From: Beijerinckiaceae bacterium
GTDB taxonomy: Bacteria > Pseudomonadota > Alphaproteobacteria > Rhizobiales > Beijerinckiaceae
Reading direction: 5' to 3'
Length of the DNA: 64,000 nt
NCBI GenBank assembly: GCA_027531565.1
Contig: JAPZSB010000005.1
Span: 62,001-126,000 of the forward strand
Of this stretch, positions 32,036 to 45,354 are shown piece by piece. The notes under the pieces were generated by a model that was not told where the DNA came from, ran no database searches, and saw only the letters and a program-made list of their open reading frames with translations. The position numbers were made by a program, and so were the translations under genes. The stretch's first letter is position 1; every line of letters begins with the position of its first letter.

Positions 32036-33763
32036 TCAGCCCTGGCGCTTGCCCTTGCGATGCGGCTTGCGGTCGGGTTTGCGGTCAGGCTTGGCGCGTG
32101 CGGGTTCGGGCTCCCGGGCGCGGGGCGGCGGCTTGCGCTTCTGGCGCGGCGCCGGCTCGGCGAGCGGGCGGATGGCTACCTCGTCCGCGTTGCCCCTGGC
32201 CATGCGGCGCTCGAATTTCTCGGCGGCTTCGGCGCTGATCTCCACCTCGGTTGTCCGGTCATGGATCCGGATGGCGCCGATCATGTGCCGTTCGAGATTG
32301 CCCCGGCGGGTCAGCATGCGGAGAATTCCCTTCGGCTCCGCCTTGTTCGCCCGTCCGATCGACAGTTCGAACCAGCGTCCCGCCATCGGCCCGGCCGGGA
32401 CGGAACCCGGCTTACCCTTGCCGGCTGCCCGCGGCTCCTCCACGGGCATGGCGTCGATCTCCTCCGGTTCGGGCAGGCGTTGCCGGAAGACGCGGGCGAG
32501 GGCCGCCGCGATTTCCTTGGGCGAACGGCGCGAAAGGAAGGCAGAGGCCATCTCCCAGTCAAATTCGCTGAGGTCCTGGAAAGCGGTGTCATCAGCCAGC
32601 AGCCGTTCCCGGTCGAGCTGGCGGATCTCGTCCGCACTGGGCAGCGCCACCCAGCGCGGCTGGATTCCGCCCTCGGCGAAGAGGCGTTCGGCCTTGCGCC
32701 GCTTGCTCGGCGGGACGAGCATGACGCTGATGCCCTTGCGGCCCGCACGGCCTGTCCGGCCGGAGCGATGCTGCAGCACCTCGGAATCATGCGGCAGGTC
32801 GGCATGGATGACGAGGCCGAGATGCGGCAGGTCGATGCCCCGCGCGGCCACATCGGTGGCGATGCAGACGCGGGCCCGGCCATCGCGCAGGGCCTGCAGG
32901 GCCTGGTTCCGCTCGCTCTGGCCAAGCTCGCCCGACAGCGTGACAGCGGCAAAGCCGCGCTCCGTGAGCGTGGCATGGAGATGCCGCACCGCCTCGCGGG
33001 TGTTGCAGAACACGAGCGTTGCCGGCGAGTCGCTCTGGCGCAGCAGGTTGACGACACCATGCTCGACCGCATGCGGCCGGACCATCGCCGCACGATGCTC
33101 GATATCCGCATGCCCCGAGACATCGCCGGCCACTTCGATCCGCGCGGCATCGCGCTGGAAGCGGGTGGCCAGCGCCACGATCCCCTTTGGCAGGGTGGCC
33201 GAGAACAGCAAGGTCCGCCGCCGGTCCGGCGTGGCGGCAAGGATCGTCTCGAGATCCTCGCGGAAGCCGAGATCGAGCATCTCGTCGGCTTCGTCGAGCA
33301 CGATGGCGGCGAGGGCGCCGAGATCGAGCGCGCCGCGCGTCAGATGGTCGACCAGCCGCCCCGGCGTGCCGACGACGATATGCACGCCGCGTTCGAGATG
33401 TTTCCGTTCGGCGCGCGAATCCATGCCGCCGACGCAGGAGGTGATGATCGCACCGGCATCCTCGTAGAGCCAGCGCAGCTCCCGCTGCACCTGCAGGGCC
33501 AGTTCGCGCGTCGGCGCGATGACCAGCGCCAGCGGCCTGCCGGCGGGCGGCAGCGCGTCGTTCAGCAGCGCCGGCGCGATGCCCAGCCCGTAGGCCACCG
33601 TCTTGCCCGAGCCGGTCCGCGACGAGACAAGGAGGTCCCGATGCGCAAGCGCGGGGTCCGCCACGGCCGCTTGCACCGGGGTCAGGCTGTCATAGCCCTT
33701 CCGGGCAAGGGACGCCGCCAGAAACGGATGCAGCGCGGAGGGCGGGATGGAGGAGACGGACAT
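32036..33763 (-). CDS. DEAD-box RNA helicase with DbpA-type RNA-binding domain
   Basis: 575 aa. All helicase motifs are present: Q motif (LTPVQAAV), I (SRTGSGKT), Ia (APTRELA), Ib (TPGRL), II (DEAD), III (SAT), V (ATDVAARGID) and VI (HRSGRTGRAG). After the two RecA domains a DbpA-like RNA-binding domain (about 455-520, SIGRANKAEPKGILRMLTRR) and a very basic Arg/Lys/Pro tail follow. It would unwind structured RNA, for instance in ribosome assembly or cold adaptation. The start at 33763 is where family similarity begins; the frame is open for another 59 codons. Confidence 0.93.
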   Translation of the reverse strand: MSVSSIPPSALHPFLAASLARKGYDSLTPVQAAVADPALAHRDLLVSSRTGSGKTVAYGLGIAPALLNDALPPAGRPLALVIAPTRELALQVQRELRWLYEDAGAIITSCVGGMDSRAERKHLERGVHIVVGTPGRLVDHLTRGALDLGALAAIVLDEADEMLDLGFREDLETILAATPDRRRTLLFSATLPKGIVALATRFQRDAARIEVAGDVSGHADIEHRAAMVRPHAVEHGVVNLLRQSDSPATLVFCNTREAVRHLHATLTERGFAAVTLSGELGQSERNQALQALRDGRARVCIATDVAARGIDLPHLGLVIHADLPHDSEVLQHRSGRTGRAGRKGISVMLVPPSKRRKAERLFAEGGIQPRWVALPSADEIRQLDRERLLADDTAFQDLSEFDWEMASAFLSRRSPKEIAAALARVFRQRLPEPEEIDAMPVEEPRAAGKGKPGSVPAGPMAGRWFELSIGRANKAEPKGILRMLTRRGNLERHMIGAIRIHDRTTEVEISAEAAEKFERRMARGNADEVAIRPLAEPAPRQKRKPPPRAREPEPARAKPDRKPDRKPHRKGKRQG

Positions 33764-33936
33764 CGGGGAAGCAATCTTGGTTCGCGGCGCGAGGATCGCG
33801 CAACCGGCGCTCGGCCAGAGCCCGCCCCTTAGCAGGTCTTGTCCGGTCAGGGCAGGGGTCTTTTCCGATGGCTGCGCTGCGGAAAGCGGGCAAGGCATGC
33901 CCGGCCGCCGGCTCGCCCGCCATCGGGGATGGCGGT

Positions 33937-35328
33937 TCACGCTGCCACGCGGGCCGTGCAGATTCCTTCGCGTTCGAGATGGCGGGCGACGCGCAGGACC
34001 AGGTCATCCCGCCCCGCGGCGGCAATCACCTGCACGCCGATCGGCATGCCGTTTTCGGGCCAGACCGGGACCGCCGCGACCGGGAGCCCGATGAAGGAGA
34101 TCGGCTGCGTGAAGAGGCCGAGATTGGCCCGGACCGGCAGGTCCTGACCCTCGACGGTGAAGACCTTCTGATCGACGAGCGGTGCCGAAACCGGCGTGGC
34201 CGGCGCAATCAGCACATCCACCTGCCGGAACAGCTCCGCCACCGCAGCCTTGTACCAGGCCCGGAAGACCTGCGCGCGGTGATACCACGCCCCGGGCAGC
34301 ATCGCCCCCGCGATCAGGCGGTCCCGGACCTCGGGGTCGAAATCGGCGACCCGCCGCCGCAGCCTGTCCTGATGCAGGGCCGCGCCTTCGGTCATCGTCA
34401 TGATGAAGGCGGCCGCCCGGGCGCGGGGGGCCTCCGGGATCTCGGCGACGCGCCAGGCTTCGAGGGCGCCGGCCACCGTCTCCACGGCCTCCAGCGCCTG
34501 GGGAGAGGCCAGCCGCGTGAAATATCCGCCGGCACGGGCAATGCGCATGCCGGCAATCCCGCCCTCGATCTGTGGCGCCAGCGGTTCGGCAGAACCGCCC
34601 CAGCAGGCGGGATCGCGCGGATCCGGCCCGCGCATCGCGTCATGGACCAGCGCGAGATCCTCGACGCTGCGCGCCAGCGGGCCGACATGGTCAAGGCTGG
34701 TGACGAAGGGGAAGCTCCCCCCGCGCGACAGGGCGCCATAGGTCGGCTTGAGGCCGAACAGGCCGCAGAGCGAGGAGGGGACGCGGATCGAACCGTTCGT
34801 ATCGGAACCCAGCGCAACCGGCGCCATGCCGGCCGCGACACAACCGCCCGAGCCGCCGGACGAACCGCCTGTCATCCGCTCCGGATCATGCGGGTTGCGG
34901 GAATGACTATCATGGGCATTTCTACCCGTAAAATCATAGGCATACGCGCCCATGTTCAAGCCGCCCATCAGGATGGCGCCCGCCGCTTCCAGCCGGGTGA
35001 TGGCGGTGGCGTCACGCTCGCTCGGCGGCCGGTCACGATTGATCTTCGATCCGGCCCGGGTCGGCAGCCCGGCAATGTCGAACAGGTTCTTGACGGCGAA
35101 AGGAACTCCGGCCAGCGCCGGCAGCGCCTCGCCCCGGCGCCGGCGTGCATCGATGCGCTCGGCAGTCGCCAGGGCGCGGCCGCCGGTGATATCGGTGAAC
35201 GCGTTCAGGCGCGGGTTGCGCGCCTCGATCACGTCGAGATGCTGCTCGACGACTGACCGGGCAGTGATGTCGCCGGAGCGGACGGCTTCGGCGATGCGGG
35301 CGCCGCTCTCGCGTGTCCAGTCCGTCAT
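33937..35328 (-). CDS. atzE: AtzE-type amidase (1-carboxybiuret hydrolase subunit)
   Basis: 463 aa amidase-signature enzyme. The Ser-cisSer-Lys triad can be placed at K80 (GVPFAVKNLFD), the GGSSGGS block (154-160) and S180 (DTNGSIRVPSSLCGLFGLKP). Sequence and the attached small partner gene fit AtzE, which with AtzG deaminates 1-carboxybiuret, the unstable product of cyanuric acid ring opening. Its ATG overlaps the atzG stop by four bases. Across a divergent promoter region lie biuret hydrolase and ring-opening hydrolase genes. A general amidase or GatA-like role is less likely given this context. Confidence 0.88.
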   Translation of the reverse strand: MTDWTRESGARIAEAVRSGDITARSVVEQHLDVIEARNPRLNAFTDITGGRALATAERIDARRRRGEALPALAGVPFAVKNLFDIAGLPTRAGSKINRDRPPSERDATAITRLEAAGAILMGGLNMGAYAYDFTGRNAHDSHSRNPHDPERMTGGSSGGSGGCVAAGMAPVALGSDTNGSIRVPSSLCGLFGLKPTYGALSRGGSFPFVTSLDHVGPLARSVEDLALVHDAMRGPDPRDPACWGGSAEPLAPQIEGGIAGMRIARAGGYFTRLASPQALEAVETVAGALEAWRVAEIPEAPRARAAAFIMTMTEGAALHQDRLRRRVADFDPEVRDRLIAGAMLPGAWYHRAQVFRAWYKAAVAELFRQVDVLIAPATPVSAPLVDQKVFTVEGQDLPVRANLGLFTQPISFIGLPVAAVPVWPENGMPIGVQVIAAAGRDDLVLRVARHLEREGICTARVAA

Positions 35329-35540
35329 GGCGTGGCCACCGGGCCGGGACGCGGATCGAAGACGGCCGCGGGTTCAAGCGTGTCCGGAACGGCGAAATCG
35401 AGAAAATCAGGTGCGAGGCGCCAGGCCAGTGCGAGGTTCATGGCCACGCCGGGCAGGGTCTCCTCCGTAAGCGGCAGGTCGAGCGCGCGGCCCAGCGTGC
35501 GTGCCAGGGCCTCGAAATCGGGCGGGGCGGAAACGGTCAT
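35325..35540 (-). CDS. atzG: AtzG-like small subunit (DUF4089)
   Basis: 71 aa, matching the size of AtzG, a GatC-like helical partner that wraps and stabilises AtzE. The pattern DFEALARTLGRALDLPLTEETLPGVAMNLALAW is typical of DUF4089. AGGAG lies a few bases before the ATG. Translation is coupled to atzE by an ATGA overlap. A sigma-54-type promoter sits 45-60 bases upstream on the minus strand. Confidence 0.87.
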   Translation of the reverse strand: MTVSAPPDFEALARTLGRALDLPLTEETLPGVAMNLALAWRLAPDFLDFAVPDTLEPAAVFDPRPGPVATP

Positions 35541-35584
35541 GCGGCACTCCTGAAGGCGGGCAGCGGAAGGATCCCGATCGGTTC

Positions 35585-35600
35585 AGCAATCGCCATGCCA
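35585..35600 (-). promoter_or_regulatory. Sigma-54 promoter for atzG-atzE
   Basis: On the minus strand TGGCAT (35600-35595), five bases, then TTGCT (35589-35585) matches the -24/-12 consensus TGGCAY-N5-TTGCW at every defined position. The predicted transcript start is near 35574, giving a leader of about 34 bases to the atzG ATG. A matching site faces the other way at 35772. Confidence 0.85.
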
Positions 35601-35771
35601 CGGAGGTCCGGCAGCGAGGGGATGGCCAGGAGGCGTGCCTGCTGAAGCCGGCGGTCCGATGTTCCGGCAGCATGCCGCAAGCCACGCCATGGCTGGCTAA
35701 TTCTTGGGCGCCTGCGCTGGATTGTATGCAGTGATGCCCCGCGAAACCCGGGCGCGGCCGGGAGTTCCGTA

Positions 35772-35787
35772 TGGCATGGGCGTTGCT
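35772..35787 (+). promoter_or_regulatory. Sigma-54 promoter for the BMP transporter-biuH-atzD operon
   Basis: TGGCAT (35772-35777), five bases, then TTGCT (35783-35787) matches the sigma-54 -24/-12 consensus. The predicted transcript start is near 35798, about 46 bases before the ATG at 35844. The space between the two opposed promoters (35601-35771) could hold a shared enhancer site, but I see no clear NtrC consensus there. Confidence 0.85.
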
Positions 35788-35843
35788 TGAAGCTGTCCTG
35801 AGCCTGTCCGGTCAGGTCCGTCACCCAGCTTCAGGAGCCCCGC

Positions 35844-36956
35844 ATGACCTTCGAACTTCTGTCCCGCCGCGCGCTGCTGAAGGGAACGGCCGCCGGCGTC
35901 GCTGCCGCTTCGTTCGGCTTGCCGAATGCCGTGCGCGCAGCAACCAACGTCACCATCGGGATCGTCTATGTCGGACCCAAGGATGATTTCGGCTGGAACC
36001 AGGCCCATGCGGTCTCGATCGGTGCGCTGAAGGCGACGCCGGGGGTCAAGATCATCGAGGAAGAGAATGTCCCGGAAACGGCTGCCGTAGCCAAGTCCAT
36101 GGAATCCATGATCAATCTCGAAGGTGCCAACCTGATCCTGGCCACCTCCTTCGGGTATTTCAACCCCTTCATGGTCGATGTCGCGAAGAAGTATCCCAAG
36201 GTCACGCTGCGCCATGCCGCCCCGCTCTGGGAAAAGGGCAAGCACCCGGACAACGCGGGCAGCTATTTCGGCTATCTCGATCAGGCCCATTATGTGAACG
36301 GCGTCGCGGCGGGCCTCTCGACCAAGACCAACAAGATCGGGTTTGTGGCCGCCAAACCCATTTCCAGCGTGCTGCGCAACATCAACTCGGTGCTCTGGGG
36401 CGCCCGCTCGGTCAATCCGAATGCCACGCTGCAAGTGATCTTCACCGGCGACTGGGCCCTGCCGGTGCGTGAGGCGGAAGCCGCCAACGCGCTGATCGGT
36501 GCCGGCTGCGACATTCTCACCTGCCATGTCGACAGCCCGAAAGTGGTGATCGAGACTGCCGAACGCCGCGGCATCAAGAGCCTCGGCCACAATGCCAGCC
36601 AGGCGCCGCTCGCGCCGAAGGGCTTCATCACTGGTGCAGAATACAAGTGGGAGACGATCTACAAGGTCTTCGCCGATGCCATCGCCAAGGGCCAGCCGGT
36701 GCCGAATGTCGTCTTCGGCGGCTATGACAAGGACATGGTGCGCAACACGGCCTTCGGTGCCGGCGCCGAGGAGCCGGCCCGCAAGGCGGCCGAGGCGGCG
36801 ATTGCCGATCTCAAGGCCAACAAGCCGCTTCTCAAGGGGCCCGTGAAGGACAACAAGGGCAATGTGGTCCTGCCCAATGCCAGCTATGACAATTTCGACC
36901 GCGTTCTCGACGGGATGAACTTCCTTGCCGAGGGCGTCGTCGGTTCCATCACCTGA
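35844..36956 (+). CDS. BMP-family ABC transporter substrate-binding protein (Tat-exported)
   Basis: 370 aa. A clear twin-arginine signal (SRRALLKG followed by a hydrophobic stretch ending VRAA) precedes a BMP/PnrA-type domain (TIGIVYVGPKDDFGWNQAHA, then KSMESMINLEGANLILATS). BMP proteins usually bind purine nucleosides or other flat nitrogen heterocycles. Its place at the head of an operon with biuret and cyanurate/barbiturate hydrolases suggests it binds such ureido or triazine compounds. AGGAG lies a few bases before the ATG. Confidence 0.9.
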   Translation: MTFELLSRRALLKGTAAGVAAASFGLPNAVRAATNVTIGIVYVGPKDDFGWNQAHAVSIGALKATPGVKIIEEENVPETAAVAKSMESMINLEGANLILATSFGYFNPFMVDVAKKYPKVTLRHAAPLWEKGKHPDNAGSYFGYLDQAHYVNGVAAGLSTKTNKIGFVAAKPISSVLRNINSVLWGARSVNPNATLQVIFTGDWALPVREAEAANALIGAGCDILTCHVDSPKVVIETAERRGIKSLGHNASQAPLAPKGFITGAEYKWETIYKVFADAIAKGQPVPNVVFGGYDKDMVRNTAFGAGAEEPARKAAEAAIADLKANKPLLKGPVKDNKGNVVLPNASYDNFDRVLDGMNFLAEGVVGSIT

Positions 36957-36970
36957 ATTCCGGCAGGGGA

Positions 36971-36996
36971 GGCCCGGTCGCTCCGGCGGCCGGGTC
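36971..36996 (+). promoter_or_regulatory. Possible intercistronic hairpin after the BMP gene
   Basis: GGCCCGG (36971-36977) can pair with CCGGGTC (36990-36996), seven pairs including one G-U, around a 12-base loop, directly after the binding-protein stop. It is weaker than the hairpins after ugpB, dctP and gltI but sits in the same place. Confidence 0.4.
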
Positions 36997-37000
36997 CATC

Positions 37001-38125
37001 ATGATGGCGGCTGATCCGGTTTCCCTTCCTTCCGCCCCGCCGGCCGGGGCCTCCGGTGCCCGCGGGCTGTTCTGGCTCGCCTATGCCGAGGCCCTCGCCA
37101 TTCCGATGCTGGCCCTGCTGGTCTCGGCGCTGCTGTTCTCGCTCTTCCTGCTGGTCCTCGGCAAATCCCCGGCCCAGTTCTTCCAGCTGGTCTGGCTCGG
37201 AGGGTTCGGCACAGCCTTCTCCTGGTCGAACACGCTGTTGCGTGCCGCCCCGCTGATGCTCACCGCCCTGGCCGTGGCCATTCCGGCCCGTCTCGGCATG
37301 ACGATGATCGGCGCGGAAGGGGCATTGGTCCTCGGGGGCTTCGCTGCCGCCGCCATCGCCCTGCCGATGATCGGGACAACCGATCCGTGGCTGATGAATG
37401 CGGTCATGCTGCTGGCGGCAATCATGATCGGCGGGCTCTGGACCGGGCTTGCCGGCAGCCTGCGGCGTTATCGCGGGGTCAACGAGACCATCTCGACGCT
37501 GCTGCTCTCCTACATTGCCATCGCGATCATGAATTTCTTCGTCGAGGGCGCCCTGCGCGATCCGGCCGATCCGAACAAGCCTTCGACCCGGAACATCGGC
37601 GCGGAAGCGATGATCGGGAAAATCCCCGGCATCGATGTCCACTGGGGTCTCGCCTTCGCCATCGGCGCCTGCATCCTTCTCTACATCCTGATGCTCCGCA
37701 CGACCTTCGGCTTTGCCTGTGCGGTGGCCGGCGGCAATCCGCGTGCCGCGCTGGCGCAGGGCCTGCCCGTGGGCCGGCTTGTTGTTATCGCCTCGATGAT
37801 TGCCGGCGCCTGTGCCGGGCTCGCGGGCTTCTTCGAGGTGGCCGCCGTCCATGGCAAGGCCAATGCCTCGCTGGCCGCCGGCTACGGCTTTACCGGCATC
37901 CTCGTGGCCTTCCTTGCCCGCCATCACCCACTGGCCATCATTCCGGTCGCGATCCTCTTCGGCGGAATCGCGGCGGCCGGGGGCATCATCCAGCGCCGGA
38001 TGGGCCTGCCCGATGCGTCCGTCCTGCTGCTGCAAGGGCTCTGCTTCGTCGTGCTGCTGGCCAGCGAGACCCTCTATGGCCGGTTGCGCCTGTTCAACCC
38101 CGCCTTGCGAACGGAGCGCACCTGA
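37001..38125 (+). CDS. ABC transporter permease (BMP/nucleoside-type, subunit 1)
   Basis: 374 aa permease of the branched-chain amino acid/ribose/nucleoside superfamily, with about nine helices. Typical blocks are the first helix PMLALLVSALLFSLFLLVLGKSP region, RLGMTMIGAEGALVLGGFAA, and the RGVNETISTLLLSYIAIAIMNFF loop. Two ATGs at 37001 and 37004 are equally possible. It pairs with the next permease for uptake of the compound bound by the BMP protein. Confidence 0.9.
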   Translation: MMAADPVSLPSAPPAGASGARGLFWLAYAEALAIPMLALLVSALLFSLFLLVLGKSPAQFFQLVWLGGFGTAFSWSNTLLRAAPLMLTALAVAIPARLGMTMIGAEGALVLGGFAAAAIALPMIGTTDPWLMNAVMLLAAIMIGGLWTGLAGSLRRYRGVNETISTLLLSYIAIAIMNFFVEGALRDPADPNKPSTRNIGAEAMIGKIPGIDVHWGLAFAIGACILLYILMLRTTFGFACAVAGGNPRAALAQGLPVGRLVVIASMIAGACAGLAGFFEVAAVHGKANASLAAGYGFTGILVAFLARHHPLAIIPVAILFGGIAAAGGIIQRRMGLPDASVLLLQGLCFVVLLASETLYGRLRLFNPALRTERT

Positions 38126-39048
38126 TGGAACCGGGTTCCGCCTTCTTCATGGTCATGATGGCGATGGTCGGCGGCGCGATCCGCGTCTCGACGCCGTTCC
38201 TGTTCGTCGCGCTCGGCGAGATGATCACCGAGCGGGCCGGGCGCATCAATCTTGGCCTCGAGGGGACCCTCGTGCTCGGCGCCATGAGCGCCTATGCGAC
38301 CTCCTACCAGACCGGCTCGCCCTGGCTCGGCGTGCTGGTGGCGGGAATGGCGGGCTGCTGCATGGGCATGCTCCATGCCGCGATCTGCCGCCTGCCACGC
38401 GTCAACGATATCGCCGTCGGCATCGCGCTGATGCTGTTTGGCACCGGCATCGCGTTCTTCTTCGGCAAGCCCTATATCCAGCCGACAGCTCCTCGCCTGC
38501 CGTCGATCCCGCTCGGCGGCTGGTCGGACAACCCGCAGGTTGTCGAGGCGCTGAAGATCAACCCGCTTTTCCTGATCGGCATCGCCCTCGCATTCTTCCT
38601 TGCCTGGGCGCTGAAGAACACTCGCCCCGGCCTGATCCTCCGTGTGACGGGCGACAGCGAGGTCGCGGCCCGCGCGCTCGGCCATTCGGTGGCTCTGGTG
38701 CGGCTGGCCGCGACCGGGTTTGGTGGGTTTCTGGCCGGGATCGGCGGGGCCTTCCTCTCGCTCTACTATCCCGGCAGCTGGAACGAGGGCCTGTCCTCCG
38801 GGCAGGGCCTGATGGCGGTGGCACTCGTCATCTTCGCGCGCTGGCACCCGATCCGCTGCATGCTCGCGGCCCTGCTGTTCGGCGCGGCCGGCGCACTCGG
38901 TCCGGCGCTGCAATCGATCGGGATCACGCAGGGCTATTACTTCTTCAACGCCGCTCCCTACATCCTCACGCTCTTCCTGATGATCGGCTCGGCCGGCTCG
39001 AAGAAGGCGCTGCGGGATGCGCCGGGTGAATTGTCGCTCACCCGCTAG
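38125..39048 (+). CDS. ABC transporter permease (BMP/nucleoside-type, subunit 2)
   Basis: 307 aa permease of the same superfamily. It has [25 protein letters not shown] near the N terminus, the hallmark of the second permease of BMP-type importers, and [22 protein letters not shown]. The ATG overlaps the stop of the first permease by one base (TGATG). With subunit 1 and the double ATPase it forms the importer. Confidence 0.9.
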
Positions 39049-39064
39049 CGAGGGTCCTGTCACC

Positions 39065-39745
39065 ATGCCCACGATTCCCGCCGATCCCTATCCCTGGCCC
39101 TATGATGGCCGGCTTGGCCCGGACAATACCGCGCTCGTCATCATCGACATGCAGACCGATTTCTGCGGCAAGGGCGGCTATGTCGATGCGATGGGCTATG
39201 ACCTCTCGCTCACCCGCGCCCCGATCAAGCCGATCCGCAGCGTTCTGGCCGCCATGCGTGGGGCGGGCTACACGATCATCCATACCCGTGAGGGCCACCG
39301 GCCCGACCTATCGGATCTGCCCGCCAACAAGCGCTGGCGCTCGCAGCGCATCGGGGCGGGAATCGGCGATGCCGGTCCCTGCGGCCGCATTCTCGTGCGC
39401 GGTGAACCGGGCTGGGAGATCATCCATGAGCTCGCGCCGCTGCCGGGCGAGATCATCATCGACAAGCCGGGCAAGGGCTCGTTCTGCGCCACCGATCTCG
39501 AATTGATCCTCCGCCAGCGCCGCATCGACAATCTCGTCCTGACCGGCATCACCACCGATGTCTGCGTCCACACGACGATGCGTGAGGCCAACGACCGGGG
39601 TTTCGAATGCCTGCTGCTCGAGGATTGCTGCGGCGCGACCGATCGCGGAAATCATGAGGCCGCGATCAGGATGGTCAAGATGCAGGGCGGGGTCTTCGGC
39701 GCCATAGGCACGTCCGGCGCCCTGCTGGCGGGATTGCCGGCATGA
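39065..39745 (+). CDS. biuH: Biuret amidohydrolase (BiuH-like, isochorismatase fold)
   Basis: 226 aa cysteine hydrolase. The triad aligns with that of rhizobial BiuH: D28 (IIDMQTDF), K134 (IDKPGKGSF) and C167 (TTDVC). From memory of the rhizobial BiuH sequence the match runs along nearly the whole length (PYPWPY start; [37 protein letters not shown]). It converts biuret to allophanate and ammonia in the cytoplasm. The ATG at 39065 lies 16 bases after the permease gene. Its stop overlaps the next start by four bases, tying it to the ring-opening hydrolase. Confidence 0.92.
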
Positions 39746-40845
39746 GGCAGGCCCGGATCCATCGCCTGCTCGTCGCAGGCCCTGACGATACCGCCCCCCT
39801 TCTGGAGGCGATCGCCACCGGGCAGATCGATCCGGCCGCGATTGTCGGGATCGTCGGCAAGACCGAGGGCAATGGCTGCGTCAATGATTTCACGCGCGCC
39901 TTCGCCGTGGCGGCGCTGAAGGCCGCGCTTGGCCGGTCTCTCCCGGCGCAAGCGGTCGATCGCATCACCATGGTCATGTCTGGCGGGACGGAGGGCGCGC
40001 TCTCGCCGCATCTCCTCGTTTTCGAGCGGATTGCCGCGCAAATGGAGGCCCCCGCCGGGCCGGCCCTCGCCATCGGCGCAGCCCATACCCGGGTGATGCA
40101 GCCGGAGGAGATCGGAATTCCGGCCCAGATCCGCGCCGTGGCGGAGGGTGTCGCTGCCGCGATGGCCGATGCCGGGATCGACCGGGTGGAGGATGTCCAT
40201 TTCGTCCAGATCAAATGTCCGTTGCTCACGGCGGATCGCGTGGCCGAGGCGACGATGCGCGGCGCCAGGACGGCCACCCGCGACACATTGAAATCCATGG
40301 GACTTTCCCGCGCGGCCTCGGCGCTCGGCGTGGCTCTCGCGCTCGGGGAAATCCCGGCCGACCGCCTCGTCGAGAGCGCCATCGGCACCGATCCCGGCCT
40401 CTGGTCCGGGCGGGCCAGTACCTCGGCCGGGATCGAGCTGATGAACCACGAGATTCTCGTTCTCGGCATGAGCGCCGGATGGGCGGGGGACCTCGTGATC
40501 GACCATGCCGTGATGGCGGACCAGATCGATATCGAACCGGTCCGCGCAGGGTTGAAGCGGCTCGGCTTCATGGCGGATGGCCAGATACCGGCCGCCGAGC
40601 GCGGCCGCCTCGTCGCGCTGCTGGCCAAGGCCGAGGCCGGCCAGTCCGGTCGCCTCCGCGGAGCCCGCCATACCATGCTCGACGATTCCGACATTTCCGC
40701 CACCCGCCATGCCCGGGCCTTTGTGGCCGGCGCGCTGGCGGCGCTGGTCGGGCATGCCGAGATCTTTGTGTCCGGCGGCGCCGAACATCAGGGCCCCGAT
40801 GGCGGCGGGCCCGTCGCCCTGATCGCGAGGAGGGCTGACCCATGA
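39742..40845 (+). CDS. atzD: Ring-opening amidohydrolase (cyanuric acid hydrolase AtzD/barbiturase family)
   Basis: 367 aa with the threefold internal repeat of this family. Three Lys/Ser pairs can be placed: K40 with S80 (VMSGGTEG), K158 (QIKCPLL) with S226 ([10 protein letters not shown]), and K296 with S344 ([15 protein letters not shown], the metal-binding end). [14 protein letters not shown] is a strict family motif. Cyanuric acid hydrolases open the s-triazine ring to carboxybiuret, while barbiturases open barbiturate to ureidomalonate; the two are hard to tell apart by eye. The neighbouring biuH and atzEG favour cyanuric acid. It overlaps biuH and the ATPase gene by four bases each. 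Confidence 0.88.
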
Positions 40846-42365
40846 GCGCAATGCGGGCCATCGGCCTCGATGTCATCGGCATGTCGAAGCGCTTCGGCGC
40901 CCTCGCAGCGCTCGACAATGTCTCGCTGAAGGTGCCGGCCGGAACCTTCCATGCGCTGCTGGGCGAGAACGGGGCCGGCAAATCCACCCTCGTCAAATGC
41001 ATCATGGGCTTCTACCAGCCCGATTCCGGGCAGGTTCTGGTCGACGGGCAGGCCCGCGCGATCCGCAACCCGCGTGAGGCGGCCGAAGCCGGCATCGGCA
41101 TGGTCTACCAGCATTTCACCCTGGTTCCCTCGCTGACCGGGGCGGAAAACCTTGTCCTTGCCAATCCGCAGGGCAGCACCGTGATCGACTGGCGCAAGGA
41201 AAATGCGGCGCTCGATGCCTTCCTTGCCCGGATGCCGTTCCGCGTGCCGCTCGACAGGCCGGTCGCCCAGCTCTCGGCGGGCGAGAAGCAGAAGCTGGAA
41301 ATCCTCAAGCAGCTCTATCTCGACCAGCGCTTCATCATCCTCGACGAGCCGACTTCCGTGCTCACCCCCGCCGAGGCCGACGAGGTGCTCGGCCTGATGC
41401 GTGACATGACGCGGCGCGGCGAGGTGACCGTGCTGATGATCAGCCACAAGTTCCGTGAGGTCACCGCCTTCGCCGATGACCTGACGGTGCTTCGCAAGGG
41501 TGCGCTGGTCGGGTCCGGCCGGGTGGCCGAGACCAGCCACGAGACGATGGCCTCGATGATGATTGGCGATACGCCGATCCGGGAACGCGCCGACCGGGTC
41601 CTGCGCGAGAACGCGCCGGTCGTGCTGGACCTTGCCGGCCTCTTCGCCGATGCCGATGATGGTCGGCCGGCCATCGAGGCGATCAATCTGAAGGTCCATG
41701 CCGGCGAGATTGTCGGGATTGCCGGCGTCTCCGGCAACGGTCAGAGCGCGCTGGTCGAGGTGCTCTCGGGCCAGCGGCCAATGCGCCTCGGGCAGATGTT
41801 CATCCACGGCGAGGATTTCATGCCGAGCCGGCGCGACATGGCGCGGTTCAAGGTATTCGGCCTCCCCGAGGAGCCGCTGAAGAACGCCACCGTGCCCGGC
41901 ATGTCGGTGGCCGAGAACATCGCCTTCCGCACCTTCGACCGCCCGCCCATCGCCCGGCTCGGCTGGTGGCTGTCGCAGGCGCCGCTCCGCGCGCAGGCCG
42001 AGACGCTGATCGCGCGCTACCGGGTCAAGACAGCCGGGCCGCAGGCGCCGATCGCCACACTCTCCGGCGGCAATGTCCAGCGCGCCATCCTCGCGCGGGA
42101 ACTGTCCGGCGAGGTGGATGTGCTTGTTGTCGCCAATCCCTGCTTCGGGCTTGATTTCGCCTCCGTGGCGGAGATCCGCGCCCAGATCATGGACCAGCGC
42201 AACCGTGGCGCCGCGGTCCTGCTCGTCTCGGAGGATCTCGACGAGATCCTGACCCTGTCCGACCGCGTCGCGGTGATGAGCGGCGGCCGGGTCACCTATG
42301 TCGAGGCCATCGAAAAGACCGACCGCGCGACGATCGGCAGCCACATGGCGGGAGGCGGACATTGA
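40842..42365 (+). CDS. ABC transporter double ATP-binding protein (nucleoside/sugar type)
   Basis: 507 aa with two fused ATPase domains. The first has Walker [10 protein letters not shown] (near 45), signature [11 protein letters not shown] and Walker [12 protein letters not shown]. The second has the degenerate GVSGNGQSA in place of Walker A and the signature [11 protein letters not shown], as usual in the RbsA/nucleoside subfamily. It powers the BMP-type importer whose permeases are encoded three genes upstream. Its start overlaps the atzD-like gene by four bases, so the catabolic genes are embedded within the transporter operon. Confidence 0.93.
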
Positions 42366-43033
42366 GCGAGGCCCTGGCCATTCCGGCCCAACCCTATCCG
42401 TTCCTGCTGCCGCCAGGCCGCACTGCGCTGATCGTCATCGACATGCAGCGCGATTTCATCGAGCCCGGCGGTTTCGGGGCTGCCCTCGGCAACGATGTCT
42501 CGACGCTGGTTCCCGCGATCGAACCGGTCGCGCGCCTGCTCGCCTTGTTCCGCAGGCAGGGCTGGCCGGTCATCCATACGCGGGAATCACATCGGCCCGA
42601 CCTGTCGGATTGTCCTCCGGCCAAGCGCCTGCGCGGCAAGCCCGGCCTCCGGATCGGCGATGACGGGCCGATGGGCCGCATTCTCGTGCAGGGCGAACCC
42701 GGCAACGCCATCCTGCCGGCCTGCGCCCCCGTTCCCGGCGAGATCGAGATCGACAAGCCCGGCAAGGGCGCCTTCTACGAAACTGGGCTGCAGGCCATGC
42801 TCGACGGGCGCGGCATCACCCATCTCGTCTTTGCCGGCGTGACGACGGAGGTCTGCGTCCAGACCTCGATGCGCGAGGCCAATGACCGCGGCTACGAGTG
42901 CCTGCTGGTCGAGGAAGCGACCGAGAGTTACTTCCCGGCCTTCAAGGCTGCCACGCTGGAGATGATCCGCGCCCAGGGCGGCATTGTCGGCTGGACGGCC
43001 CGGCTGGCGGCTCTGGAGTCGGCGCTGGGCTGA
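42362..43033 (+). CDS. Isochorismatase-family cysteine hydrolase (BiuH/TrtA-like)
   Basis: 223 aa. Triad residues are D27 (VIDMQRDF), K132 (IDKPGKGAF) and C165 (TTEVCVQ). It is clearly related to the BiuH in the same operon but diverged in the middle ([18 protein letters not shown]) and end. The start is TTG at 42362 with GGAGG seven to eleven bases upstream; it overlaps the ATPase stop, and no ATG exists before residue 28. In this context it may hydrolyse a related ureide such as triuret (the TrtA activity, which yields carboxybiuret) or ureidomalonate. This is inference. Confidence 0.85.
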
Positions 43034-43182
43034 AGCTGTCGGTGGTGTGATCATCAAGTATACTGCGCACAGTCAAGCATTTTTCTGTTGTTCTCGAGCA
43101 ATGCGGTCACCCTTCCGGGATTGCGGCGGCCGGAATTTTCGCCTAAACGAGGCAAATACAAGGATTTAAGTAGAGGTTTACC

Positions 43183-45354
43183 ATGTGCTGGGTTTGCGGT
43201 CAGAGCGGGACATATCAGCCGCAGACCTTCACAGCAGAAGCGATCAGTATCGCTGACGGTTCCGCAATCCAGTCCAGCCTCGCGGACCTTGGCCAGAACG
43301 CGTCCTCCGTCGCAACAGCCAACGCCTCCTCGGCCGATATCGCGGCCTTGACCGGGTACTTTCATTATAGGTGGAACAACGCGGTTTCGGCGGGCGCTCC
43401 GGCCATTGTGACCTACAGTTTCCCGACCGCTCTGGCGAGTTACGACAGTAGCCTGACCGGCTTTTCCCCGTTTTCCGAAGAGCAGAAGGCCTATGCCCGG
43501 ATGGCGCTGGATGCCTGGGCCTCTGTCAGCGGCATCTCCTTTGTCGAAGTGCCGGCCAGCGTAGGCGGGAAGATCCGCTTCTCCTTCGTGAACATGGAGA
43601 GCACCACGGCAGGTTATGCGTATTACCCGTCAGACTATTATGATCAGGCCGGCGATATCTACATCAGTTCGCGGTATCAGGGCGTGGGGTCGCAGACGGC
43701 GCCGGGGACCTTCGGCTTCGAGGTTCTGCTCCACGAGATCGGCCATGCGATCGGGTTCAAGCATCCGTTCCAGGGATCTCCGACGCTCGACCCCTCGCGG
43801 GACAATAACCTCTACACGGTGATGTCCTACACCCGCGCGGGCGTCACCTCTGTAATCGGCTCGATCGACCGCGCCGCGGTTCAGTTCTTTTACGGCATCA
43901 ACGATCTGAACTATTCGTGGAACAGCTCCATGCTGACTTTCAGCATCTACGGGGCCGATATCGGCGAGTCCACGGTCGGGACCGAGTTGACCGATTTCAT
44001 CTATGGCGCCGGCGGCAACGACATCATCTATGGCCTTGCGGGGAACGATACCCTGTTCGGCGGGCCGGGGGGCGACAGGCTGGATGGCGGGGACGGCTTC
44101 GACACGGTGAGCTACGCGCAGGAAGGCGGAGCTGTAACCGTCTCGCTTTTCCAAGGAACAACCGGCGGGCAAGCGGCGGGGGATTCACTCTTCAACATCG
44201 AGAATGTGATCGGAACGGCCTTTGCTGACACGTTGACCGGCAATTCCTTTGAGAACCTTCTGATCGGCGGCGGCAATGCGGATGTGCTATCCGGCTATTC
44301 CGGCAACGACATTCTCGTCGGTGACGGTCCTGTCCTCTGGGACAATAACGGCGCGGCGATCCGGCGGCTCTATATCGCCACGCTGAACCGCGCGCCGGAT
44401 GATGCCGGCCACCGGGACTGGTATCGCAGCCTGCAGGGCGGGCAGGACCTGACCTCGACCGCCGGCGGCTTCATCGCCAGCCAGGAATTCGCGAATGTGT
44501 ATGGCAACCTGTCGAACGCAGCCTTCGTCTCGACCTTGTACAACAACGTTTTGGGCCGGGCGGCCGATGCACAGGGGCTCAGTGACTGGGTTAACCTTCT
44601 CAATAGTGGCATGAGCCGTGCCTCGGTGGTGGTCGGCTTTTCGGAAAGCCTCGAATTCCAGATCTCGAGCGATATCCTTGCCCATCCTGGGCAGGTTTAC
44701 CGGATCTATGACTCCGCCTTCAACCGGCAGGCCGATGCGGGTGGCCTCGAGGGCTGGGTCAACGCGATGTATGCCGGGGCGAAGATCGGCGATCTCGTCA
44801 ACGGCTTCATGAATTCGGCCGAGTTCACCAACACGTATGGCCCGATCAATGCGCTCTCGAACACGCAATTCGTGAACCTGCTCTACACGAACGTTCTCAA
44901 CCGAACAGCTGATAGCGGCGGCCTCGCCTCCTGGGTGGCCAGTCTCGATGGCGGCGCCTCGCGTGCGAACGTGTTCTTGAGTTTCTCCGAATCGCAGGAA
45001 CACAAGAACCTGATGGCCCCAGGCTATGATTCGTTTATGCGCAACGCGCTGCCGGCCTGGCGGGACACGCTGAGGGGCGAACAAGGCAATGACACGCTGT
45101 TCGGCGGCCGAGGGTCGGATACGTTCGCCTTCGCCAGTGGTGAAAGTGGTTCGGATGTTGTACTCGGTTTCGAGAGCATCGATACACTGCGTTTCATCGG
45201 TTTCGGCTACAATAACGCCTCGCAAGCCCTTGCGAAGATGACGCAATCCGGGAACAACGTCGTGTTCTTCGATTTCGGGAATACGATCACCTTCCAGAAC
45301 ACCCAGCTCGCGACGCTGCAGGGCATGACATCGGCGGGGTGGGTGTTCGCGTGA
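43183..45354 (+). CDS. Secreted M10 metallopeptidase with RTX repeats and DUF4214 domains
   Basis: 723 aa, no Sec signal. The N-terminal catalytic domain has the metzincin zinc motif HEIGHAIGFKH (184-194) and Met-turn VMSY (M214), as in serralysins. A first RTX calcium-binding block follows (about 255-305, GGNDIIYGLAGNDTLFGG). Then come four related segments of the DUF4214 type (RxLYxxxLxRxxDxxGxxxW, about 385-620), a second RTX block (about 645-665) and a hydrophobic C terminus ending VFA, the layout of type I secretion substrates. The N terminus MCWVCGQ carries a CxxC. No secretion genes lie nearby. Confidence 0.9.
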   Translation: MCWVCGQSGTYQPQTFTAEAISIADGSAIQSSLADLGQNASSVATANASSADIAALTGYFHYRWNNAVSAGAPAIVTYSFPTALASYDSSLTGFSPFSEEQKAYARMALDAWASVSGISFVEVPASVGGKIRFSFVNMESTTAGYAYYPSDYYDQAGDIYISSRYQGVGSQTAPGTFGFEVLLHEIGHAIGFKHPFQGSPTLDPSRDNNLYTVMSYTRAGVTSVIGSIDRAAVQFFYGINDLNYSWNSSMLTFSIYGADIGESTVGTELTDFIYGAGGNDIIYGLAGNDTLFGGPGGDRLDGGDGFDTVSYAQEGGAVTVSLFQGTTGGQAAGDSLFNIENVIGTAFADTLTGNSFENLLIGGGNADVLSGYSGNDILVGDGPVLWDNNGAAIRRLYIATLNRAPDDAGHRDWYRSLQGGQDLTSTAGGFIASQEFANVYGNLSNAAFVSTLYNNVLGRAADAQGLSDWVNLLNSGMSRASVVVGFSESLEFQISSDILAHPGQVYRIYDSAFNRQADAGGLEGWVNAMYAGAKIGDLVNGFMNSAEFTNTYGPINALSNTQFVNLLYTNVLNRTADSGGLASWVASLDGGASRANVFLSFSESQEHKNLMAPGYDSFMRNALPAWRDTLRGEQGNDTLFGGRGSDTFAFASGESGSDVVLGFESIDTLRFIGFGYNNASQALAKMTQSGNNVVFFDFGNTITFQNTQLATLQGMTSAGWVFA

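Follow-up and report, generated by a model that had tools for sequence, protein, structure and literature searches.

A predicted nitrogen-scavenging gene set for triuret, biuret and cyanuric acid in a Beijerinckiaceae bacterium, with two putative routes from carboxybiuret

A cluster of nine genes lies at positions 33937-43033 of a 64,000-nucleotide stretch from a Beijerinckiaceae bacterium of the Rhabdaerophilum group (assembly GCA_027531565.1, contig JAPZSB010000005.1, positions 62,001 to 126,000 of the forward strand; this whole stretch is called the window). It carries atzG and atzE on one strand and, divergently, a BMP-type ABC importer operon that also includes biuH, atzD and a second gene of the isochorismatase family. 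The cluster is real, well-formed and probably functional. From its sequence features we judge it probable, though well short of certain, that it belongs to a regulon that scavenges nitrogen from condensed or oxidised ureides, in which two routes lead onward from carboxybiuret under shared sigma54-type control.

Features of the cluster (window coordinates, strand, description)
33937-35328, minus: atzE, Ser-cisSer-Lys amidase, putative 1-carboxybiuret hydrolase catalytic subunit (NF006631, 694 bits, cut-off 461)
35325-35540, minus: atzG, small non-catalytic partner (PF13318, AtzG-like, 37.1 bits, cut-off 24)
35585-35600, minus: putative sigma54-type -24/-12 promoter toward atzGE, TGGCATGGCGATTGCT (11/12 consensus positions)
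35721-35734, plus: conserved box ATTGTATGCAGTGA, candidate GntR/FCD operator (identical in 4/5 genus genomes with TrtA and AtzD)
35772-35787, plus: putative sigma54-type -24/-12 promoter toward the importer operon, TGGCATGGGCGTTGCT (11/12 consensus positions)
35844-36956, plus: BMP/PnrA-type substrate-binding protein (PF02608, 107 bits)
37001-38125, plus: ABC permease A (PF02653, BPD_transp_2)
38137-39048, plus: ABC permease B (PF02653, BPD_transp_2)
39065-39745, plus: biuH, predicted biuret amidohydrolase (likely start 39065 in an open reading frame of 39017-39745; NF050097, 421 bits, cut-off 370)
39742-40845, plus: atzD, predicted cyanuric acid amidohydrolase (NF052395, 540.5 bits, cut-off 360)
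40842-42365, plus: double ABC ATPase of the importer (single open reading frame, two ABC_tran stretches)
42362-43033, plus: trtA, predicted triuret hydrolase of the isochorismatase family (PDB 6xix, TrtA, E 1.7e-94; NF050097 only 250.8 bits)

The gene content and the divergent placement of atzG-atzE described in the initial annotation were confirmed for all nine genes by family profile matches, the plus-strand unit running in the order BMP protein, permease, permease, BiuH, AtzD, ATPase, isochorismatase. The overlaps said to tie the catabolic genes to the transporter are also present, at 4 bases each for biuH/atzD, atzD/ATPase and ATPase/isochorismatase, and atzG and atzE overlap by the same length. 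The two divergent units are separated by 303 bases.

Two predicted sources of carboxybiuret

The sequence of the AtzD-like enzyme points to a cyanuric acid hydrolase (CAH) and away from a barbiturase. The enzyme lies over the cut-off of the CAH equivalog and shares 65% identity with the Azorhizobium CAH. All ten of the active-site residues that were checked are conserved, with three Ser-Lys pairs and three Arg. Arg190 of the window enzyme corresponds to Arg188 of the Azorhizobium enzyme, a position occupied by Gln in barbiturase (PMC4051656). CAH and barbiturase belong to one protein family, PF09663, and the gene could in principle encode a barbiturase in a pyrimidine pathway, but this is hardly credible given the Arg, an equivalog score well over the cut-off, and a score of 231.9 bits against barbiturase 5hwe as compared with 429.8 bits against the Azorhizobium CAH. 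A barbiturase identity was rejected on these residues and on the profile and structure scores, which favor the cyanuric acid reading of the initial annotation.

The protein encoded at 42362-43033 had been placed correctly in the isochorismatase family, but as a second isochorismatase without its TrtA-type character, so that a triuret source was overlooked. It falls under the BiuH equivalog cut-off (250.8 against 370 bits for NF050097), and the solved structures closest to it are the TrtA entries 6xix and 6xj4. Residues that distinguish TrtA from BiuH have been described (PMC7948467). The protein has the D-K-C triad and all six TrtA-type residues, F35, N41, A134, E160, Y187 and I205 in Herbaspirillum numbering, whereas the BiuH of the window passes NF050097 and has the BiuH-type letters Y, Y, S, D, T and V at all six positions. 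We therefore predict that the second isochorismatase is a TrtA-type triuret hydrolase and not a spare BiuH.

At least 573 relatives were confirmed in a scan for TrtA, and the best 80 were kept, a sample that leans to the kin of the window. All six TrtA-type letters are present in 45 of these 80 TrtA matches and five in the other 35, two of which carry one BiuH-type letter. Among 70 BiuH matches in related loci, 60 have all six BiuH-type letters and 10 have five.

Provided that this assignment holds, triuret should be a further compound that the cluster accepts. Because the product of TrtA is carboxybiuret, which is also the product of AtzD (PMC7948467), the cluster would then have two sources of this intermediate.

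Sigma54-type sites at four scattered units

Sites were scored over the 12 positions of the sigma54 consensus. The importer-side and atzG-facing sites are of the TGGCAY-N-TTGCW type with GG/GC, lie upstream of a gene, are conserved in relatives and each match 11 positions. Of 66 importer upstream regions, counting that of the window, 46 contain a site scoring 10/12 or better, a level reached by 2.0% of shuffles. In the 3.67-Mb genome the strict pattern TGGCAYGNNNNTTGCW is found at three places, which are atzGE, the importer operon, and directly upstream of AtzF. Since a reversed control pattern also occurs once, the count of three is not telling by itself, although its placement is.

The remaining pathway genes lie elsewhere. 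As the initial annotation had stated, no allophanate hydrolase is found in the 64-kb window, where only atzE itself matched, below the cut-off. The search of the rest of the genome that it proposed located AtzF on another contig (C4, L088:7302-9337), as the only allophanate hydrolase match over the cut-off genome-wide, and AtzH on contig C9, ~100 kb from the cluster; both have sigma54-type sites, that of AtzH being weaker (10/12, 50 bases upstream). AtzF consists of two overlapping frames, an amidase and a C-terminal domain. Because the annotation of a Roseomonas plasmid (L119) shows two genes laid out in a similar way, the split is probably genuine and no artefact of sequencing. AtzH, in the stretch L087:8223-12744, adjoins a two-component system, and hydantoinase-, racemase- and amidase-like genes were seen close by on inspection by eye. 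RpoN is encoded in the genome.

Conservation of the sites was examined among 17 genomes of the genus (own genome included, and Rhabdaerophilum sp. SD176, L007, counted in the genus). AtzE, AtzD, BiuH and TrtA of SD176 share 90-95% identity with those of the window. Four of these genomes are loci L007-L010 of the 80-locus sample, so the two comparisons are not independent. Five genus genomes, our own among them, have TrtA together with AtzD, and in all five sites precede all four units, with scores of 11-12 for importer and atzGE, where atzGE has a site of 11 in each, 12 for atzF and 10-12 for atzH. In the four genus genomes with TrtA in which no AtzD was found, the importer site scores 11 in all four, the best sites before AtzH score 6-7, and those before AtzF score 6, 8, 10 and 10. 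The divergent sigma54-type promoters thus putatively tie atzGE and the importer operon together, which agrees with the earlier description of AtzEG and BiuH as parts of one unit. Outside this lineage, all nine Burkholderia/Paraburkholderia importer upstream regions are without the site (scores of 7-9 of 12).

The box ATTGTATGCAGTGA sits between the two promoters, and its first ten letters are found again upstream of AtzF in all five genus genomes with TrtA and AtzD. When up to two mismatches are allowed, the genome contains four copies of the 14-mer, one of them in the divergent region and another, with two mismatches, upstream of AtzF. A match of at least 11/14 is present in 17 of the 66 importer upstream regions as compared with 1.4% of shuffles, where three of the 17 are the window and the two near relatives from which the box was derived. 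An FCD-type GntR regulator is encoded ahead of AtzF on C4, and the box is a candidate GntR operator. GntR proteins 46-53% identical to this regulator are present in 18 of the 80 TrtA loci, directly beside atzF in eight of them, an arrangement suggesting that an ancestral single cluster was split. Separately, in two genus genomes without a TrtA match (L200 and L201), AtzF is preceded by a sigma54-like site, scoring 11/12 and 10/12 respectively, and has the ATTGTATGCA box.

Distribution of the joined branches

In the 80 TrtA loci, BiuH is found in 71, BMP in 67, AtzH in 60, AtzF in 40, AtzE in 33 and AtzD in 7. BiuH and AtzE occur together in 30 of the 80, so the mixture recurs. The proposal that the cluster combines both branches was right as to their presence but overstated, because this combination is shared by those loci and the backbone has the order of that in Rhizobium 3841 (see below). 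AtzE accompanies AtzD in all seven AtzD loci, and AtzD lies between BiuH and the ATPase in all six of the seven that show both. For the 60 loci with enough flank, AtzE is present in 6/6 with AtzD and 24/54 without (Fisher p 0.024). We place little weight on this test, which ignores relatedness and the plasmid counterexamples L115 and L116.

Across the class, an AtzD-like gene (E 1e-40) is present in 22 of 385 genomes, our own included. The 20 stretches examined cover 21 of the 25 AtzD-like places outside this genome, and none of the 20 has a 60% BiuH match or the importer/BiuH/TrtA backbone. Two stretches, from one genus, have a 49% AtzE near AtzD, and one has TrtA ~9 kb off. On a plasmid of Acidithiobacillus caldus (L122), xanthine dehydrogenase, ureidoglycolate lyase, an AtzD-family gene, AtzG, AtzE, HpxZ and gamma-glutamyltransferase genes are found together, which appears to be an AtzD relative in a purine setting.

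TrtA and BiuH are both present in nine of the 17 genus genomes. Five of these nine have AtzD between BiuH and TrtA with atzGE divergent, and the other four have neither AtzD nor AtzGE in the stretches read, the rest of those four genomes not having been searched. AtzH is found in 10 of the 17, comprising all nine with TrtA and one of the eight others, and AtzF in all nine and three of the eight. AtzH was considered as a marker of AtzEG and rejected, being present in TrtA genomes with or without AtzE near TrtA.

A 5-formyltetrahydrofolate (5-FTHF)-cyclo-ligase-like gene (PF01812) lies after trtA in three of the four AtzD-less genomes. It is not beside trtA in the three AtzD-containing relatives that could be judged; in the fourth, the contig ends ~430 bases past trtA. 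The search of our own genome gave no match, with no positive control in that search, although the same query finds the genes of three relatives at 74-75%. Among the 80 TrtA loci, 29 carry this gene, in most cases immediately behind trtA or atzE (for example L016:12281-13060). Since it co-occurs with AtzD/AtzGE in other lineages, this is not a strict exchange, and its product is a candidate carboxybiuret-handling enzyme. A more specific scenario is a four-locus sigma54 regulon with split carboxybiuret flux, in which, within the genus, AtzEG came with AtzD and replaced the 5-FTHF-cyclo-ligase-like gene after trtA, whose product may be a carboxybiuret decarboxylase or another enzyme that handles carboxybiuret. 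We offer this scenario only tentatively.

In the window, the gene directly 3' of trtA, on the same strand, encodes a serralysin-like/RTX repeat protein with three DUF4214 stretches (43183-45354). A scan of 42900-43300 found neither a sigma70-type promoter nor a terminator 3' of trtA, and thus no terminator-like site between the two genes.

The substrate of AtzEG

Both atzE and its AtzG-family partner are present, the best PDB relative of AtzE being 6c62 (E 9e-146). We infer that AtzEG acts on carboxybiuret in this genome. A tree of 49 rows was built, two of them AtzF outgroups, from which a shortened AtzE (L034) was left out and whose bootstrap had not fully settled. The window AtzE and two near relatives fall within a starred 31-row group, which is almost entirely alphaproteobacterial and comes mostly from TrtA loci. 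Three plasmid loci (L121, L123 and L131) have a full-signature TrtA, 57-61% identical to that of the window, clustered with atzE and atzH, and in two cases also with atzF. No separate BiuH was found on these replicons (the chromosomes were not searched), where the BiuH matches of 52-55% are the TrtA genes themselves. TrtA with atzE and without BiuH on the replicon fits AtzEG as a sink for the carboxybiuret made by TrtA, without proving it. As a separate observation, residue 128 of AtzE is Ala, where most aligned AtzE relatives, the nearest included, have Glu in an NMGEYAYDF motif.

Several observations weigh against this assignment or against the regulon as a whole. AtzE is 53% identical to AtzE of Pseudomonas ADP and 51% to HpxY of Klebsiella, and it belongs to a clade apart from the assayed ADP enzyme, which forms its own starred pair with that of P. 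putida. The 31-row group includes an Acidithiobacillus AtzE from an hpx-like setting (xanthine dehydrogenase/HpxZ), and two TrtA-linked AtzE rows form a group with the HpxY pair of Klebsiella and Serratia (82/86). Clade is therefore no guide to gene setting, and the tree does not reveal the substrate. In Rhizobium and Allorhizobium (L116) the same backbone includes AtzD, but AtzE is not close by, and AtzH is also found in the four genus genomes whose TrtA has no AtzGE near it. TrtA identities of 91% versus 85-87% across the genus suggest two clades, so that the joint pattern of AtzD and AtzGE is probably one event. The box ATTGTATGCAGTGA is missing in one of the five genus genomes with TrtA and AtzD. 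Finally, an ntrC mutant of Burkholderia cenocepacia grew better, not worse, on biuret (PMC5491218), though the Burkholderia/Paraburkholderia regions scored above are all without a site.

The main rival substrate for this AtzE group is oxalurate. AtzEG would then act, like HpxXY, on another imported ureide, and the regulon would scavenge products of urate oxidation side by side. AtzE homologues do occur in the hpx (oxalurate) clusters of Klebsiella and Serratia, the Acidithiobacillus AtzE beside xanthine dehydrogenase is inside the window's own group, and the name of the AtzH family in NCBIfam is HpxZ. Triuret and cyanuric acid can arise from urate oxidation (PMC7948467), and urate reacts with singlet oxygen to give parabanic acid and then oxalurate (PMC5703782). 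However, of 68 columns at which the HpxY pair differs from AtzE of ADP and P. putida, the window protein agrees with AtzE in 31, with HpxY in 14 and with neither in 23; the plasmid clusters described above fit carboxybiuret; and no HpxW-like gene was noticed beside atzE, although no genome-wide search was made. We consider oxalurate an unlikely substrate, though not a remote one. A gamma-glutamyltransferase (HpxW) downstream of atzE, its place in hpx clusters, was looked for and not seen, the next same-strand frame (32036-33940) reading by eye as a DEAD-box-type RNA helicase.

AtzGE might also be redundant, a bystander at the shared intergenic region that contributes little to the flux, with the catabolic unit following the biuret route already known from Rhizobium. 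In vitro, carboxybiuret loses CO2 spontaneously (half-life ~20 min), after which BiuH suffices (PMC7948467), and Rhizobium 3841 is reported to have no atzE homologue (PMC5806882). On the other hand, a sigma54-type site precedes atzGE in five of five genomes, AtzD and AtzGE are present jointly within the genus, and AtzE has no internal stop in the window or in relatives. A bystander role seems improbable on this evidence, and we retain carboxybiuret as the preferred substrate of an active AtzEG.

Proposed pathway

In the regulon that we propose, the BMP-type importer would take up compounds such as triuret, biuret and cyanuric acid. AtzD would open cyanuric acid and TrtA would deaminate triuret, both yielding 1-carboxybiuret. 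On one route, AtzEG would deaminate carboxybiuret to 1,3-dicarboxyurea, which AtzH would decarboxylate to allophanate. On the other, carboxybiuret that has lost CO2 would be deaminated to allophanate by BiuH, along with imported biuret. AtzF would finish the pathway by converting allophanate to ammonia and CO2. With sigma54-type promoters on all four units, atzGE, the importer operon, atzH and atzF would come on together under nitrogen limitation, presumably through NtrC, and the FCD-GntR encoded beside atzF perhaps tunes the pathway by binding the box.

The available literature treats the AtzEG and BiuH routes as alternatives in different bacteria. A natural comparison is offered by a lineage that has both, under what resembles a single nitrogen switch, and by same-genus relatives in which neither AtzD nor AtzGE adjoins the triuret backbone. 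This comparison prompts two questions: why a cell should spend resources on deaminating carboxybiuret, which breaks down spontaneously, and whether the first source was triuret instead of cyanuric acid derived from herbicides. Testable substrate predictions follow as well, for this AtzE group and for a common gene beside trtA.

Comparison with known systems

The closest known arrangement is on pRL10 of Rhizobium johnstonii (leguminosarum) 3841, where the order BMP-permease-permease-BiuH-AtzD-ATPase-TrtA is the same as in the window and the last cysteine hydrolase likewise has the full TrtA signature. Unlike the window, pRL10 has an adjacent GntR gene (its product 41% identical to the regulator beside AtzF on C4) and extra formamidase and cupin genes, and has no atzE or atzF match within 12 kb. 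The Rhizobium operon has been said to contain AtzF (PMC7948467); to the contrary, PMC5806882 reports none near it, as does our 12-kb search.

The atzDGEHF operon on pADP-1 of Pseudomonas sp. ADP resembles the window in having AtzD with AtzEG and a BMP-type importer on the opposite strand. The importer pointed out in the initial annotation is therefore present but not peculiar to this cluster, although the ADP BMP protein is only 33% identical to that of the window. The ADP operon includes AtzH and AtzF and is accompanied by a LysR-type regulator, and the 11-kb stretch has no BiuH or TrtA match. The window does not hold an operon of this type, because AtzH and AtzF are elsewhere and AtzGE is on the opposite strand from AtzD. 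Nitrogen starvation induces both ADP operons, which have sigma54 promoters (PMC6834077), so the logic of the window parallels that of a known system with different genes.

The Herbaspirillum triuret pathway (TrtA, TrtB, BiuH and AtzF) has TrtA with BiuH, as does the window (PMC7948467), and trtA, biuH and atzF together with a BMP importer (bmpA-nupABC) have already been reported in nitrifiers (PMC12625717). That pathway uses the decarboxylase TrtB, which is absent in comammox, and the available portions of these reports make no mention of AtzEG or AtzD in those clusters. A limited literature search found no account of a single cluster with AtzD, AtzEG, BiuH and TrtA, and none of a triuret or biuret operon under sigma54 control. 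The enzyme families, the kind of importer and the backbone with AtzD are thus already known. What appears to be new is the joining of the AtzEG and BiuH branches, with apparently shared nitrogen-type promoters over four scattered units.

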